This document shows positions 33,270 through 54,632 of a stretch of 64,000 nucleotides of DNA, in pieces. The stretch spans positions 1 to 64,000 of the forward strand of contig NZ_JADDXW010000005.1 in assembly GCF_017183135.1 (NCBI RefSeq), read 5' to 3'. The DNA comes from Aurantimonas marina. GTDB taxonomy: Bacteria; Pseudomonadota; Alphaproteobacteria; Rhizobiales; Rhizobiaceae. Under the pieces are notes generated by a model. The model was not told the origin of the DNA. It searched no databases and saw nothing but the letters and a program-made list of their open reading frames with translations. Each line of letters opens with the position of its first letter. Within the stretch, counting starts at the first letter, position 1. The translations under genes were made by a program, and so were the position numbers.

Positions 33270-33724
33270 GAGGTGCCAGTCGGCTGGGCGGCCGCTCCCG
33301 TCATACGTCGAAAGACGGCGGGGGAGGAAAGTCCGGGCTCCACGGAGAAACGGTGCCGGATAATGTCCGGCGGGGGCGACCCCAGGGAAAGTGCCACAGA
33401 AAACAGACCGCCCCGCCTATAGTGCGGCTCGACCGGCGCAAGAGCCTCGGCAGCGGAGCCGCACTATTGGCGGGGTAAGGGTGAAACGGCGGGGTAAGAG
33501 CCCACCGCGCTTCCGGCAACGGCAGCGGCACGGTAAACCCCACCGGGAGCAAGACCGAATAGGGACGACGCGGCGGTTCGCCTTCGGGTGACATCGCCAG
33601 CCCTTCTCCGGGCCTGTCGTCCGGGTGGGTTGCTCGAGGCGGTTCGCAAGAACCGTCCCAGAGGAATGGTCGCCAGGCGGCTTTCGCCGCTCACAGAACC
33701 CGGCTTACAGGCCGACTGGCTCTC
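33270..33724 (+). ncRNA. rnpB: RNase P RNA (catalytic RNA, bacterial type A)
   Basis: The catalytic RNA that trims tRNA 5' leaders. The conserved core GAGGAAAGTCCGGGCTC stands at about 33323-33339, GGGAAAGTGCCACAGAAA follows, and the 3' conserved part reads GAGGAATGGTCGCC and ACAGAACCCGGCTTA. Helix P1 closes the molecule: GCCAGTCGGC near 33275-33284 pairs with GCCGACTGGC near 33711-33720. Length is about 455 nt; the exact ends are estimated from P1. The antisense frames here are not genes. Position ahead of mraZ matches other Rhizobiales as I recall. Confidence 0.93.
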
Positions 33725-33786: not shown

Positions 33787-33952
33787 CTTCGTTCATGGGA
33801 CGCACTCACACCGGCCCTGCGATTCCCCGGAATCATTCGTCTTTCAGTCGAATTCCGGCTGGCGCACCGACATCTTCGACCGCCCGGACAGCTTCGGGCA
33901 AGTGCCGAGACAAAAATCCAAGCCGTTTCGAAAATATCAATATTAATAGGGT

Positions 33953-33967
33953 GTTAAGACTGTCATC
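33953..33967. promoter_or_regulatory. CtrA-type box upstream of mraZ
   Basis: TTAA-TAGGGTG-TTAA fits exactly the TTAA-N7-TTAA consensus of the alphaproteobacterial cell-cycle regulator CtrA. It lies 266 bp before the mraZ start, in an AT-rich patch of a long non-coding stretch (33725-34233) that otherwise shows no gene. Chance occurrence is small at this GC content. Confidence 0.55.
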
Positions 33968-48212: not shown

Positions 48213-48548
48213 GAGTGGGAAGAACTGCCGCCCGCCGGTGGTGGCAGATCTTCGAAAAATCGCCTTGTGCGGGGGCCGCCATTTGGCGGCCAGGCGAGGC
48301 CCGGGCGCCAGCACGGCGTCCGACTGAAACGGGATGGAACGGTTACAGATTTTTCGGCGAGGAGGCCGTCACCGAAGCGGCTGACGACCAGCGTCGCCGG
48401 GCCTCGTGCTGAGATCTCCGCTTTGGTCCTCTTCCCCGAATAGCCCCGGCTCCGGCCGCTGCGTGATGCTTGCTTTCCCACCTGTTGCGGAACCCTGAAG
48501 CACCGCCGAGTATTGCAAAAATATGGAAGCGGATCGGGAGACGAAAGA
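48213..48548. other. Gap between murB and the EEP-family gene
   Basis: 336 bp with no supported gene. The last 15 nt hold GGGAG, the ribosome-binding site for the following GTG. No intrinsic terminator or strong repeat was found. Confidence 0.5.
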
Positions 48549-49652
48549 GTGAGCGATCAAAGGTCCAGGTCCCTAGCGCGAAAGATCAGGCTGTATGTCT
48601 TGGTGCCATTATTGCTTGCGCTGGCGGTCTTTTCGCTGCTGCCGCTTGTGGAGTCCAACCGGTGGTGGATCCGTTTTCTCGACTTTCCCCGGATACAGGT
48701 AACGATCGCTCTTCTTCTCGTACTGGCGCTCTACGTGATCCTGGGCGGCTGGCGTGGCCGGTTCGGTCTGGCGACGATCGTTCTGTCGATCATCGCGCTC
48801 GGCTACCAGGCCTACCGTCTCTATCCTTACACGCCGCTGGTCGAGCCGATGGCGCTGCGGATAACGACGTGCCCGGCGGACGCACGCTTGGCGGTCATGG
48901 TCGCCAACGTCAAGCGGACGAACCGGAGGGCCGACGCGCTCTTGCGGATCATCGAACAGGCCGAGCCGGATCTTCTTCTCGTTCTCGAGACCGACGAGTG
49001 GTGGGATCGCCAACTCGCGCCGCTCGACAAGCGGTTCGGCTTCAACGCACAACACATTCCCACCGATGCCGAATATTACGGGATGCATCTTTTCTCGCGC
49101 TACCCACTGATAGATGCGCAGGTGAAGTTCCTTTTCGGGGCCGACACGCCGACGATCTTCTCGGGTGTTCGTTTGCCGAAAGGTGAGGTGATACACTTCG
49201 CTGGTCTTCATCCGCGGCCGCCGCAGAGTTGGTCGCGACCGACCACCATGCGCGACGGCCATCTGGCCACTGCGGCACTGGCGGCGGCCGATTCCGATGC
49301 GGCGAGCGTGATCGCCGGAGATTTCAATTCGGTGCCATGGGAACGCATCACGCGGCGCGTTATGCGGCTGGGTCAACTACTGGACCCGCGTGTCGGCCGT
49401 GGAACCTACCCGACCTACGACGCACAGAGCTGGATCCTGTCCTGGCCGCTGGACCAGGTGCTCTACCAGACGCGTTTCGGATTGCTCGGCTACGATACGC
49501 TTCCCGAATTCGGCTCGGATCATTATCCGATCCTGGCCGAACTCTGCTACTCGCCGGCCATGGCCGACCGGCAATCGGCTCCGGCACATGAGGAGGGCGA
49601 TCGCGAGGAGGCGCGAACGGCTATCGAGGCGGCGCGACAGCTGGAAAGATAG
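48549..49652 (+). CDS. Membrane-anchored endonuclease/exonuclease/phosphatase (EEP) family protein
   Basis: Predicted EEP-fold hydrolase, 367 residues from GTG 48549 (GGGAG 8 nt upstream; TTG 48513 is an alternative). Three N-terminal membrane helices (about 14-33, 49-67, 71-90) precede the catalytic domain. Active-site segments are MVANVKRTN (Asn120), LLLVLETDEWWD (Glu147), AGDFNSVPW and EFGSDHYPIL with the final Asp-His, so the metal centre looks intact. The fold covers nucleases, phosphatases and phospholipases; the substrate here is unknown. It lies inside the dcw cluster between murB and ddlB. As the catalytic domain follows the third helix, it may face the periplasm if the N-terminus is cytoplasmic. 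Confidence 0.88.
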   Translation: MSDQRSRSLARKIRLYVLVPLLLALAVFSLLPLVESNRWWIRFLDFPRIQVTIALLLVLALYVILGGWRGRFGLATIVLSIIALGYQAYRLYPYTPLVEPMALRITTCPADARLAVMVANVKRTNRRADALLRIIEQAEPDLLLVLETDEWWDRQLAPLDKRFGFNAQHIPTDAEYYGMHLFSRYPLIDAQVKFLFGADTPTIFSGVRLPKGEVIHFAGLHPRPPQSWSRPTTMRDGHLATAALAAADSDAASVIAGDFNSVPWERITRRVMRLGQLLDPRVGRGTYPTYDAQSWILSWPLDQVLYQTRFGLLGYDTLPEFGSDHYPILAELCYSPAMADRQSAPAHEEGDREEARTAIEAARQLER

Positions 49653-49737
49653 GGCCATTCATCGCCCGACGTCCCGGCCCTCTTCCTCCCGTGGAGGGCT
49701 TATCTCCTTACGAAAATCTTTCTTTCGCCACAGTTAG

Positions 49738-49756
49738 TTAACTGCTGCTTAACCAT
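49738..49756. promoter_or_regulatory. CtrA-type box upstream of ddlB-ftsQAZ
   Basis: TTAA-CTGCTGC-TTAA (49738-49752) exactly fits the CtrA full-site consensus, and its right half extends to TTAACCAT, the CtrA half-site described in Caulobacter. It is 57 bp before ddlB and fits a promoter activated or repressed at its -35 region. CtrA control of ftsQAZ is known in Caulobacter and other alphaproteobacteria. Confidence 0.7.
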
Positions 49757-49809
49757 CCGCCTGCGATGAATGGCTCCTAGCCTCGTTTGAGGATCGGATC
49801 GGGCGGTTC

Positions 49810-50733
49810 ATGGCCAAGCATGTCGCGGTATTGATGGGTGGTTTTTCGTCGGAGCGGCCGGTCAGCCTTGCCTCCGGCAACGCCTGCGCCGATGGCCTCC
49901 AGGCCGCCGGCTACGCGGTGACGCGCGTCGACGTCGACCGCGACGTCGCCCGCGCGCTGGCCGAGCTGCGGCCCGACATTGCCTTCAACGCCCTGCACGG
50001 TCCCTATGGCGAGGACGGCACGATCCAGGGCCTCCTCGAATATCTGGCGATACCCTACACCCATTCCGGCGTTCTCGCCTCGGCGCTCGCCATGCATAAG
50101 GAACTGGCGAAGACGGTCGCGAAGGTGGCCGGTGTGCCGGTGGCCGAAGCCAGGGTGTGCCATCGCCGCGACGCCGCCGGCAAACACGTCCTGTCACCGC
50201 CCTATGTGGTGAAGCCGGTGGCCGAGGGTTCCAGCTTCGGCGTCCTGATCGTGCGCGAGGACCAGGCTCATCCGCCGCGGGAACTCACCAGCGACGAATG
50301 GCCTTATGGCGACATCGTCATGGTCGAACGCTTCGTCGCCGGACGGGAATTGACCTGCGCGGTGATGGGCGACGTGGCGCTCGAGGTCTGCGAGATTACC
50401 ACCGAGGGCCACGCATTTTACGACTACGATTCCAAATATGCTCCCGGCGGATCGCGCCATGTTGTGCCGGCCGAAATTCCCGCCAAGGTCTCCCGGCGTA
50501 TTCAGGAATGGTCGCTCGCCGCCCACAGGGTGATCGGTTGCCGTGGCGTGACGCGCTCGGACTTTCGCTATGACGACCGCTTCGGCGAGGGTGGCGAGGT
50601 GATCTGGCTGGAGATAAACACCCAGCCCGGCATGACCAAGACCTCGCTTGTGCCCGACATTGCCGCCGCCTCCGGCCATTCCTTTCCCGAACTTCTGACC
50701 TGGATGGTGGAGGACGCCTCGTGCAATCGCTGA
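49810..50733 (+). CDS. ddlB: D-alanine-D-alanine ligase
   Basis: ATP-grasp ligase making D-Ala-D-Ala for MurF, 307 residues. [19 protein letters not shown] is the N-terminal substrate loop, [17 protein letters not shown] and [16 protein letters not shown] follow, [13 protein letters not shown] binds ATP, and [17 protein letters not shown] holds the metal ligands. The ftsQ GTG lies 13 nt before its stop, so the two are coupled. It opens the second half of the dcw cluster behind a CtrA-type box. Confidence 0.97.
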
Positions 50734-51635
50734 CGGCCGAGCGCCGCCCTAACGACATGCGCGCCGGTACGCCCGGGCGACTCACCTTGCGTATGCTGCG
50801 CGCCGGACGCCGGGCTTCCGGTCTCGCCGCCAGCGTTGCGCGACTGCCCATACCGCCTTTCGGTGCGCTGGCCGCGGTGGTGATCGGATCGGCCGTCGTC
50901 TACGGCATATCGGTGGGCGGCCACACCGTGACGGTCGTCGACGGCATTGCGCAGCCGCTCGGCTTTCCGATCGAGGCGATCGACGTGACGGGCAATTCGG
51001 AAACTTCCGAGATCGATGTCCTGCAGGCGCTCTGGCAGACCGGCTCGCAGAGCCTGTTCTCGCTCGATCCGGCCGCTGCCCGCCAGGCCCTGGAAGAGAT
51101 GCCCTGGGTCGATCGCGCTTCAGTGGCCAAGGTCTTTCCCGATCGGGTCCGGATCACCCTGTCCGAACATCGCCCTTACGCCGTCTGGCAGAAGGGGCGA
51201 GAGTTCGTTGTGGTCAACCGCGAGGGCAAGGAGATCGTGCCCTTCACCCCCGGCCGCTTCGCCAATCTGCCTGTCGTTGTAGGGACCGGCGCGGCCGCCC
51301 ACGCCGCGGCTCTCCTCGACGAGTTGGAGGTCCTGCCCGAGCTTCGCGCAAGGGTGAAGGCGTATATCCGAGTGGGGAATCGTCGTTGGGACTTGCGGCT
51401 CGAAAACAGCATCGCGATCGAGCTTCCCGAGGATGATCCAGTCGAGGCACTGGCCGAGGTGGCGCGGATGGACCGGGAGAACGGGCTTTTGTCTCGCGAC
51501 ATCGCGGCCGTCGACATGCGGCTTGCTGACCGGATCGTGATCAAGCTCACGCCCGACGCGTTGATTCGGCGTAATGCGGCTCTGAAGGAGCGTGAGAAGA
51601 TTTTCAAGCGTAGCCGGAAGGATGACCCGGTATGA
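50721..51635 (+). CDS. ftsQ: Cell division protein FtsQ
   Basis: Bitopic division protein, 304 residues, GTG start at 50721 inside the end of ddlB. A basic cytoplasmic tail is followed by a membrane helix (about 48-67). The POTRA domain has [20 protein letters not shown], and the beta domain has [19 protein letters not shown]. It recruits FtsL/FtsB. Overlaps ftsA by 4 nt. Confidence 0.95.
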
Positions 51636-52960
51636 GTTTGTTTCAACGTGGCCGGGACGAGCTTCCGCGCATCAAGGCGCTACCGAAGCGCCGCTCCCGC
51701 GTGATCTCCGTGCTGGATGTCGGCTCGGAAAAGGTCTCCTGCCTGATCGCTCGGCTGACGCCGCGCGTTGCCAGTGAGATGTTGCCCGGCCGGACCCATA
51801 CGATCGAGGTAATCGGCGTAGGTCACCAGCGCTCGCACGGCATCAAATCCGGAGTCGTCGTCGATCTCGACGCGGCGGAGCAATCGGTCCGGCACGCGGT
51901 CGCCGCGGCCGAGCGGATGGCCGGACTGACCATCGAATCGCTGATCGTCTCCGTCACGGCCGGACGGCTCAAAAGTCTGCGCGGCGCCGCTGAGATCGAC
52001 ACCGTCGGGGAGATTTCTCAGGCGGATGTTTCGCAGGTCCTTGGTCTCGCCGCGAAGGTGCCCCTCGAGGAGCGCCGAGTGGCGCTGCATTCGCTCGCCT
52101 TCGATCTGTCGATCGACGGCGAGAGCGGGCTCGACAAGGTCGTCGGCATGAGCGGCAATCGGCTAGGCGCGGACATGCATGTGCTGACCGCCGAGGAAAC
52201 ACCGTTGCGCAATCTCGAGGCGGTCGTCAATCGTGCGCGGCTGATGGTCGAGGCGTTCGTGGCGACGCCTTATGCCAGCGCGCTTTCGACATTGGTCGAA
52301 GACGAGGCGACGATGGGTTCGGCCTGCATCGACATGGGGGGCGGTGCGACGACCATCGCGATCTTCCAGAATGGTCGCTTCGTCTATGCCGATCAGGTCG
52401 CGCTCGGCGGCAACCACATCACCATGGACCTCGCACGCGGATTGTCGATCCGTCCGGCCGATGCGGAGCGGCTCAAGGTCATGCACGGCTGCACCCTGAG
52501 CGAGTTGATGCAGGACGACGACAGGGTGCCTGTCGTGCCGCTCGGGGAAGAGGGCGGACACGACTCCAAATCCACCGTCGCGCGTTCGCTGATCGCTAAG
52601 ATCATCCGGCCGCGCGTCGAGGAAACCCTGGAGCTTGTCCGCGACCGTCTGGCCGCCTCAGGGCTCGGCCACGTCATCGGGAAGCGCGTGGTCTTGACCG
52701 GCGGTGCCAGCCAGCTTGCCGGCATGAGCGATACGGCGCGCGGTATTCTCCAGCGCAATGTTCGGCTCGGACGACCGGTCGGGGTTGCCGGGCTCAATCC
52801 ATCCAACAAGGGGCCAGCCTTTGCGACCTCGGTCGGCCTGCTGATCTACCCGCAGGTCGCCCATCGCGAGAACACCGGCCAATCGTCGATCGCGGCCTTC
52901 GCGCTCGATCAGAACACCAGGACGGGACGTTTCGGATCCTGGCTCCGGCGGAGCCTTTGA
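51632..52960 (+). CDS. ftsA: Cell division protein FtsA
   Basis: Actin-like membrane tether for FtsZ, 442 residues. Phosphate-1 region VLDVGSEKVSCLIA, phosphate-2 region IDMGGGATTIAIF, adenosine region VVLTGGASQLAGM. The C-terminal RTGRFGSWLRRSL is the amphipathic membrane-targeting helix. It overlaps ftsQ and precedes ftsZ by 130 bp, a gap that may carry an extra ftsZ promoter. Confidence 0.97.
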   Translation: MSLFQRGRDELPRIKALPKRRSRVISVLDVGSEKVSCLIARLTPRVASEMLPGRTHTIEVIGVGHQRSHGIKSGVVVDLDAAEQSVRHAVAAAERMAGLTIESLIVSVTAGRLKSLRGAAEIDTVGEISQADVSQVLGLAAKVPLEERRVALHSLAFDLSIDGESGLDKVVGMSGNRLGADMHVLTAEETPLRNLEAVVNRARLMVEAFVATPYASALSTLVEDEATMGSACIDMGGGATTIAIFQNGRFVYADQVALGGNHITMDLARGLSIRPADAERLKVMHGCTLSELMQDDDRVPVVPLGEEGGHDSKSTVARSLIAKIIRPRVEETLELVRDRLAASGLGHVIGKRVVLTGGASQLAGMSDTARGILQRNVRLGRPVGVAGLNPSNKGPAFATSVGLLIYPQVAHRENTGQSSIAAFALDQNTRTGRFGSWLRRSL

Positions 52961-53090
52961 GACAGCGCGGCCGGACTGCCGGCCGGCCGCGAAAACATAC
53001 GGTGCGCGCCGCGCGCCGTAGCAACTGACAATGCGAACGGCCGCGCGGCGAAACGGCCCGAAACTGCGATATGCGATAGAGGAACAGGAT

Positions 53091-54632
53091 ATGAGCACGA
53101 ACCCGAACAAGACCGACATCACCGAGTTGAAGCCCCGCATCACCGTTTTCGGCGTTGGCGGAGGCGGCTGCAATGCGGTCAACAACATGATCAACGCCGG
53201 CCTCGAAGGGGTCGAGTTCGTGATCGCCAACACCGACGCCCAGGCGTTGCGCTCGTCCAAGGCCGAACGGATCATCCAGATGGGCGTCGCCGTGACCGAG
53301 GGACTCGGCGCCGGTTCGCAGCCGGAAGTCGGCCGTGCCGCGGCCGAGGAATCGATCGACGAGGTCTGCGACCATCTCCTCGGCTCGCACATGTGCTTCG
53401 TCACCGCCGGCATGGGCGGCGGCACCGGCACCGGCGCCGCGCCAGTGGTCGCGCGAGCGGCTCGCGAAAAGGGCATCCTCACGGTTGGCGTCGTGACAAA
53501 GCCGTTCCATTTCGAAGGTCAGCGCCGGCTGCGGATCGCCGACGAAGGTATCGAGGAACTGCAGAAGAACGTCGATACCCTGATCGTCATTCCGAACCAG
53601 AACCTGTTCCGGATCGCTAACGACAAGACCACCTTCGCCGACGCCTTCGGCATGGCCGATCAGGTGCTGTATTCGGGCGTCGCCTGTATCACCGACCTGA
53701 TGGTGAAGGAAGGGCTGATCAATCTCGATTTCGCCGACGTGCGTTCGGTGATGCGCGAAATGGGCAAGGCGATGATGGGTACCGGCGAGGCGTCCGGCGA
53801 AGGACGCGCGATGGCCGCCGCCGAAGCCGCGATCGCCAACCCGCTGCTCGACGAGACGTCGATGAAGGGCGCGCGTGGGCTGTTGATCTCGATCACCGGT
53901 GGCCGCGACCTCACCCTCTTCGAGGTCGACGAAGCGGCGACCCGCATCCGCGAAGAGGTGGACCAGGACGCCAACATCATCCTCGGTGCGACATTTGACG
54001 AGAGTCTTGAGGGGATTATCCGCGTGTCGGTGGTCGCGACCGGTATCGACAAGGTCGAGATGGCGCTGGCGGGACACGCTGCGGAACGCTATGCCGCGCC
54101 CGTTGCCGCGGCGCCCCGTGCCGTGCCGCAGGCCGAATCGGCAACGTCCCGTGTCGCGGTGGCGGAGCCGACGCCGGTCCTCCCGGCCGCAGTCGCGATG
54201 GATGAATTTGACGAAGAGATCGAAGACGACTTCACCGACGCGCTCGAGGCCGAGATTGCCCAGGTCAGCTCGTCGACTCCCTCTGCGGATATTCCAGCGC
54301 CTCGTATGCCGCGAGTCGAGGATTTTCCGCCCGTCGTACGCGCCGAGATCGAGAGCCGATCTGCCGAGTACCACGGTGAGGACCGCGGTCCGATGGGGCT
54401 GTTGCGTCGGCTGACGACGGGCTTGTCGCGACGCGACGAAGAAGAGCACTCGACCGCCGAAATCCGTCAGAGCACGCCGGAAGCGTCACGCCGGGCGGTG
54501 GTTGAGCCGAATCCCTATGCGCCCCGCCGCGTGGCCGCCGAATCAGGTGCCCGGCCGGTGCCTCAGGCACGCTCGGTCAGTGATGACGATCAGCTTGAAA
54601 TCCCTGCGTTTTTGCGCCGTCAGGCCAACTGA
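53091..54632 (+). CDS. ftsZ: Cell division GTPase FtsZ
   Basis: Tubulin-like Z-ring protein, 513 residues from ATG 53091. The GTP-binding core is [16 protein letters not shown] and [14 protein letters not shown]; the T7-loop region reads [12 protein letters not shown]. The core ends near residue 320, then a long Ala/Glu/Arg-rich linker of about 170 residues, typical of alphaproteobacteria, leads to the conserved C-terminal peptide [13 protein letters not shown] that binds FtsA. A terminator hairpin follows at 54660. Confidence 0.98.

Follow-up and report, generated by a model that had tools for sequence, protein, structure and literature searches.

A promoter controlled by CtrA adjoins ftsQ in Caulobacter. 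Promoters with a CtrA motif in this organism are reported to include those of ftsQ and ftsK, and the 5′ base of a full site (TTAA-N7-TTAA) lies most often near -35 of the starts that it activates; for one full site, the same work assigns an activating role at a start for which it lies at -39 and a repressing role at a second start for which it lies at -14 (PMC4287350). In the distant lineage of Hyphomonas neptunium, the reported CtrA regulon includes ftsB and ftsAKQZ, the latter described as directly controlled; minCD does not belong to that regulon, and the term 'ddl' does not occur in the main text (PMC7200025). The timing of divisome gene expression in the Rhizobiales is unsettled. In Sinorhizobium meliloti, division control was attributed to the Min system (minCD, under CtrA) together with other, unknown means, and not to ftsQA (PMC4433202), and for CtrA of another Rhizobiales member, binding is reported at minC and ftsE and no binding at ftsZ (PMC2877005).

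GcrA targets are known to be rewired among the Caulobacterales, where division genes such as ftsN and ftsZ are predicted to come under GcrA control in some relatives and to leave it in others, in a study whose main text contains neither 'ddl' nor 'ftsQ' (PMC7987155). GANTC was reported to be enriched 4.4- to 4.7-fold in the GcrA peaks of Brucella (PMC6813329). The literature searched contained no paper joining CtrA and ddlB, CcrM and ddlB, or Aurantimonas and CtrA. CtrA control of fts genes is already known; the same searches turned up no published account of an entry through ddlB or of a swap of regulators at this promoter.

The locus described here lies in a 64,000-base stretch of Aurantimonas DNA (the window). 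It resembles the ftsQA locus of Caulobacter crescentus in that CtrA would be tied to the same division genes through a TTAA-N7-TTAA site predicted to lie near -35 (PMC4287350, PMC4433202), and differs in that the box stands before ddlB, with no half-site ahead of ftsQ or ftsZ. Direct control of these genes would likewise agree with the report for H. neptunium; unlike that organism, this genome has a full site before minC (PMC7200025). The minC site is shared in kind with S. meliloti (PMC4433202), from which the genome differs in having exact sites before both minC and ddlB-ftsQAZ. Unlike the cases described in Caulobacterales, GANTC clusters and a CtrA box are seen, in the sequences of sister groups, at one and the same promoter. 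The interest of the locus lies in the ddlB entry point with its deep footprint and in an apparent hand-over between two cell-cycle systems.

Results

The box at 49738-49752 reads TTAACTGCTGCTTAA, with TTAA halves at 49738-49741 and 49749-49752 separated by the spacer CTGCTGC. With the flanking CCAT (49753-49756) it becomes TTAACTGCTGCTTAACCAT (49738-49756). The first-pass annotation had described a full site without mismatch, extended to TTAACCAT and placed 57 bp before ddlB, and the sequence agreed in each respect: the extended half-site occupies 49749-49756, and the interval between the box and the ddlB ATG (49810) is 57 bases long (49753-49809). The features of the locus are collected in Table 1.

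Table 1. Features of the ddlB promoter region and the downstream genes, in window coordinates.
Feature	Position	Strand	Basis
Upstream conserved block ccTTnCgAnttTCTTgc	49706-49722	+	Mean pairwise identity 0.77 (37 rows) vs 0.39 outside blocks
CtrA full site TTAA-N7-TTAA	49738-49752	+ (palindrome; ddlB strand used)	Sequence; TTAAC halves invariant in 37/37
Extended half-site TTAACCAT	49749-49756	+	Sole TTAACCAT in the window
Downstream block GcgAtgaATgg, candidate -10 region	49763-49773	+	Mean pairwise identity 0.73; -10 register taken from the Caulobacter geometry (PMC4287350)
Predicted transcription start	49773-49777	+	Inferred; 5′ base of site set at -35 to -39, following Caulobacter (PMC4287350)
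ddlB (D-alanine--D-alanine ligase)	49810-50733	+	Pfam PF07478, PF01820
ftsQ, overlaps ddlB	50721-51635	+	Pfam PF08478, PF03799
ftsA, overlaps ftsQ	51632-52960	+	ORF; label from reading and gene order
ftsZ	53031-54632	+	ORF as listed; Pfam PF00091, PF12327

The first-pass annotation had called such a site rare in this GC-rich DNA. The window (64.6% G+C) contained two exact full sites against a mean of 0.04 in shuffles, and none of the 100 shuffles reached two. Full sites with one mismatch numbered four against 1.06 expected, a count that three of the shuffles reached; as these matches were not clearly above chance, weight was placed on the exact form only. Genome-wide, exact full sites were found at 24 places, compared with 6 for the reversed pattern (the palindromic pattern is found on both strands, and each genomic place was counted once). 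Between 47 and 56 kb, TTAAC occurred as two half-sites only and GTTAA only at 49737, overlapping the box, and no further full site, exact or with one mismatch, was present.

Conservation of the box was examined in 60 genomes. An exact site preceded ddlB in 12, comprising eight of the window's genus (its own included) and four of other genera, and TTAACCAT was present at the box in 11 of these 12 loci. A search of close relatives for loss of the motif found none: all 12 members of the Aurantimonas/Jiella/Fulvimarina/Aureimonas clade in this set retained the box. The idea that the whole of the Rhizobiales shares a CtrA box here was rejected: in the sequence searched ahead of ddlB (up to 600 bp; less for L056, L063, L068 and L070), 48 of the 60 genomes had no exact site, and these included all 24 genomes of other families. 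Named loci of the four clade genera carried the exact box in 17 of 17 cases among the best 80 of 583 confirmed matches, a set biased to near relatives, in which the genera sampled are those among the matches listed. Across 201 upstream regions (183 distinct), the exact site occurred in 39, at -68 to -73 in 37 and at -132 in two.

The scan of orthologous ddlB upstream regions recovered the box in every one of the 37 distinct clade rows. Both TTAAC halves were invariant in all of them, 68-73 bp ahead of the ATG, and identity in the six bases between the halves was 0.57, compared with 0.39 in columns outside the conserved blocks, so that selection holds the halves themselves. In 100 shuffles of the clade upstream regions a mean of 0.03 of the 37 contained a box, with a maximum of one. 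Two further blocks, ccTTnCgAnttTCTTgc upstream of the box and GcgAtgaATgg downstream of it, kept a fixed distance to the box across the clade. The upstream block is a candidate for a UP-like element or for the site of a second factor. In seven Jiella-group loci of the clade (L026, L091, L094, L095 and L155-L157), a single GANTC was observed at -35 to -37, on the downstream edge of the -10-like block and beside the CtrA box, an arrangement in which double control would be possible.

A quick DdlB tree (LG+G4, SH-aLRT) was built from 118 distinct proteins from 131 loci, 13 repeats having been dropped. The 37 clade rows, all with the box, were separated from the rest of the tree by a branch of SH-aLRT 98. 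Of the other 81 rows, that of Rhizobium sp. G21 had an exact box, at -132, and 16 had a match with one mismatch; some of these matches (L036, L038 and L220, for example) depart from the form usual in Rhizobium/Shinella and could be due to chance. Seventy upstream regions with little or no ddlB sequence (L046-L075, 30 regions; L112-L151, 40 regions) lay outside the tree, and one of them, L141, had an exact site, at -132. The exact full sites seen outside the clade were thus those of L213 (Rhizobium sp. G21) and L141 (another member of the family) only, both at -132. The reading of the box as a point of CtrA control of ddlB, proposed in the first-pass annotation, is therefore supported by conservation within the clade and does not extend beyond it, where 80 of 81 rows had no exact box; the observation was correct, and its interpretation is well supported by the comparison for this clade only.

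The ddlB/ftsQ and ftsQ/ftsA overlaps make a single transcript for ddlB-ftsQ-ftsA likely. For ftsZ, the ATG at 53091 is the more probable start, in place of the listed 53031. A gene of the endonuclease/exonuclease/phosphatase family (48513-49652) was observed between ddlB and murB, the identity of the latter being confirmed by Pfam. A gene of this family precedes ddlB in three of the 37 clade loci (L016, which is the window's, L019 and L152), and the murB-ddlB gap therefore differs even within Aurantimonas. In 18 of the 37 loci murB was found, ending 134 to 1,391 bp before ddlB, and it was absent from the upstream sequence examined in the other 19, three of which had the endonuclease/exonuclease-family gene in its place. 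Transcription of ddlB is unlikely to depend on read-through from murB alone, since the distance is very variable and about half of the clade loci showed murB in the sequence examined; by position, the box stays with ddlB and not with murB.

No half-site lay ahead of ftsQ or ftsZ in the 47-56 kb interval, and a second CtrA entry before either gene was rejected on this ground. Entry through ddlB rather than through ftsQ or ftsZ, as first proposed, fits these data: the sole half-sites in the interval are at ddlB, and the distance from box to ddlB is kept while that from murB varies. If CtrA acts on this interval through TTAAC half-sites, it would enter at ddlB. A sigma-70 consensus scan of 48-55 kb returned no promoters (1.1 expected in shuffles), and terminator-like sites in the same interval numbered three against 4.5 in shuffles, one of them 27 bp past the ftsZ stop; with both counts at or under the shuffle level, no conclusion was built on them.

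The genome encodes CtrA. One protein exceeded the curated cut-off of model NF045991 (424.9 bits against 350), and the remaining 32 of the 33 matches to the model fell under it and are other response regulators. The best PDB sequence match of the encoded CtrA was a chain named CtrA (residues 1-118). A GcrA gene is also present. Exact full sites were found elsewhere before genes expected to be CtrA targets, with the following distances from site to start: gcrA, about 228 bp; minC, 59 bp; ftsK, 94 bp; fliF, 93 bp; and mraZ, 291 bp. The gene families at these sites were confirmed by search, the start codons were chosen mechanically, and the assignments cover part of the 24 sites. Judged by the genes that follow it, the exact full site points to plausible targets of CtrA in this genome.

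The relatives without the CtrA box had a different upstream sequence. At least three GANTC sites were present in the 300 bp before ddlB in 72 of the 81 non-clade rows and in none of the 37 clade rows. The window's own ddlB had no GANTC in these 300 bp, and by this count was not classed as a GcrA/CcrM promoter. Compared with shuffles that keep dinucleotides, GANTC per 300 bp was 5.37 against 1.66 in the 81 non-clade rows and 0.59 against 1.61 in the clade. Among the best 80 of 583 matches, the 51 named loci without a CtrA match, a group set by that absence and not by GANTC count, averaged 6.25 GANTC per 300 bp, compared with 0.51 in the flanks of the same loci; the values were 2.75 against 0.48 for 12 Rhizobium/Shinella-type loci and 0.65 against 0.46 for the 17 clade loci.

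A common module, CTTGcCA-N2-GAATCaActCTCTGATTCT followed by aaGCGTTtcCTGATTTGAGTCG, was found in the 62 rows that combined at least three GANTC, the limit also used for the group of 72, with the lack of any CtrA match. In genera of the Mesorhizobium/Phyllobacterium type (L029-L031, L033, L112-L114, L164-L200 and others), the region from about -250 to -40 of ddlB contained a strongly conserved module rich in GANTC. The element AACTCTCTGATTC occurred once per genome in 15 of 61 family genomes, compared with one of 61 for the reversed control, and lay within 250 bp ahead of ddlB in 13 of the 15; one copy was on another contig (G008) and one was unplaceable (G064). In Rhizobium, Shinella and Allorhizobium, a box of the form GTTAAC..aaGTaAAcg.TTcaTTaaCc was often present, with a AACTCTCTGATTC-like element upstream of it. 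On the tree, two changes were needed for the exact box and six for the state of at least three GANTC, and only two independent box-versus-GANTC pairs were available, which gives no power; the mutual exclusion of box and GANTC thus rests on few evolutionary events and not on 118 independent ones.

Discussion

These data make it likely that the box is a real CtrA site, fixed in the clade, which serves under activation by CtrA-P as the core of a cell-cycle promoter for ddlB-ftsQ-ftsA-ftsZ. When base 49738 is set at -35 to -39, the start falls at 49773-49777 and the downstream conserved block lies over the -10. We infer that both half-sites, spanning the -35 region, are bound by phosphorylated CtrA, which activates this start from a -10 within GCGATGAATGG (49763-49773), and that transcription from the ddlB promoter would run on to ftsZ. 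DdlB, which performs the last cytoplasmic step of wall-precursor synthesis, and FtsQ, FtsA and FtsZ, of the divisome core, would then rise together when CtrA activity is high, before division. The presence of a conserved block in the -10 register indicates that CtrA most likely activates at this box; that the block is unlike TATAAT counts against this reading of the box, as do the absence of a consensus sigma-70 promoter from the 48-55 kb scan, the minCD-not-ftsQA result reported for S. meliloti (PMC4433202) and the reported lack of ftsZ binding in another Rhizobiales member (PMC2877005).

Control of the opposite sign is unlikely, although part of the footprint would suit it. Here TCTTGC would be the -35 of an upstream promoter whose -10 and start are covered by CtrA, and ddlB-ftsQAZ would be off at high CtrA. 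The ccTTnCgAnttTCTTgc block, which contains TCTTGC, is indeed conserved at a fixed distance upstream, and full sites with the 5′ base at -14 were assigned as repressing in Caulobacter (PMC4287350). TTAACC would, however, make a poor -10, and the second conserved block stands on the downstream side of the box, where an activated promoter would have its -10. The 32 response-regulator matches below the CtrA cut-off supply other proteins that might share a preference resembling TTAA-N7-TTAA and use the box in place of CtrA; this is very improbable, as the same exact form stands before gcrA, minC, ftsK and fliF, which are linked to CtrA in other Alphaproteobacteria. The near-chance number of one-mismatch matches in the window could suggest that the site ahead of ddlB is itself fortuitous, but its retention in 37 of 37 distinct clade upstream regions, where shuffles gave at most one, rules out chance for practical purposes.

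With activation by CtrA taken as the reading for the clade, the distribution of boxes and GANTC sites bears on how this promoter has changed. The density of GANTC by itself is no proof of GcrA control, and a link to GcrA/CcrM is probable. On balance, the comparison slightly favors the view that ddlB-ftsQ-ftsA-ftsZ changed its cell-cycle master within one GTDB family, with CtrA acting in the clade, GANTC/CcrM, probably with GcrA, in Mesorhizobium/Phyllobacterium types, and both in Rhizobium/Shinella types. If so, the Rhizobium/Shinella types would preserve an intermediate state, and expression of the division genes, themselves unchanged, would have passed from a clock set by methylation and linked to replication to the predivisional clock of CtrA. 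The CtrA-box clade, the GANTC sister groups and the mixed type would form a natural series in which the regulator of an essential operon changed while its function was kept. The predictions made here are precise enough to be addressed by reporter fusions and by the mapping of transcription starts.

Several further features accompanied these sites. The exact full site between maf and hemE (L011, G000:C8:48360-48374) lies in a gap that contained no canonical DnaA box (TTWTNCACA) and had GTCCACA and TGTGGAC-like strings. The Caulobacter origin lies beside hemE. The maf/hemE gap could be an origin region; the S. meliloti origin is reported to be without CtrA motifs (PMC4433202). The second full site of the window (33943-33957) is followed after about 291 bp by mraZ, which opens the dcw cluster. 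In four of nine regions examined mraZ was located, and in all four (the window's own included) it was preceded by an exact site, variable in its spacer, at -290 or -291. Just upstream of the dcw cluster, at 33276-33723 of the window, a bacterial class A RNase P RNA was identified (Rfam RF00010, 302 bits).
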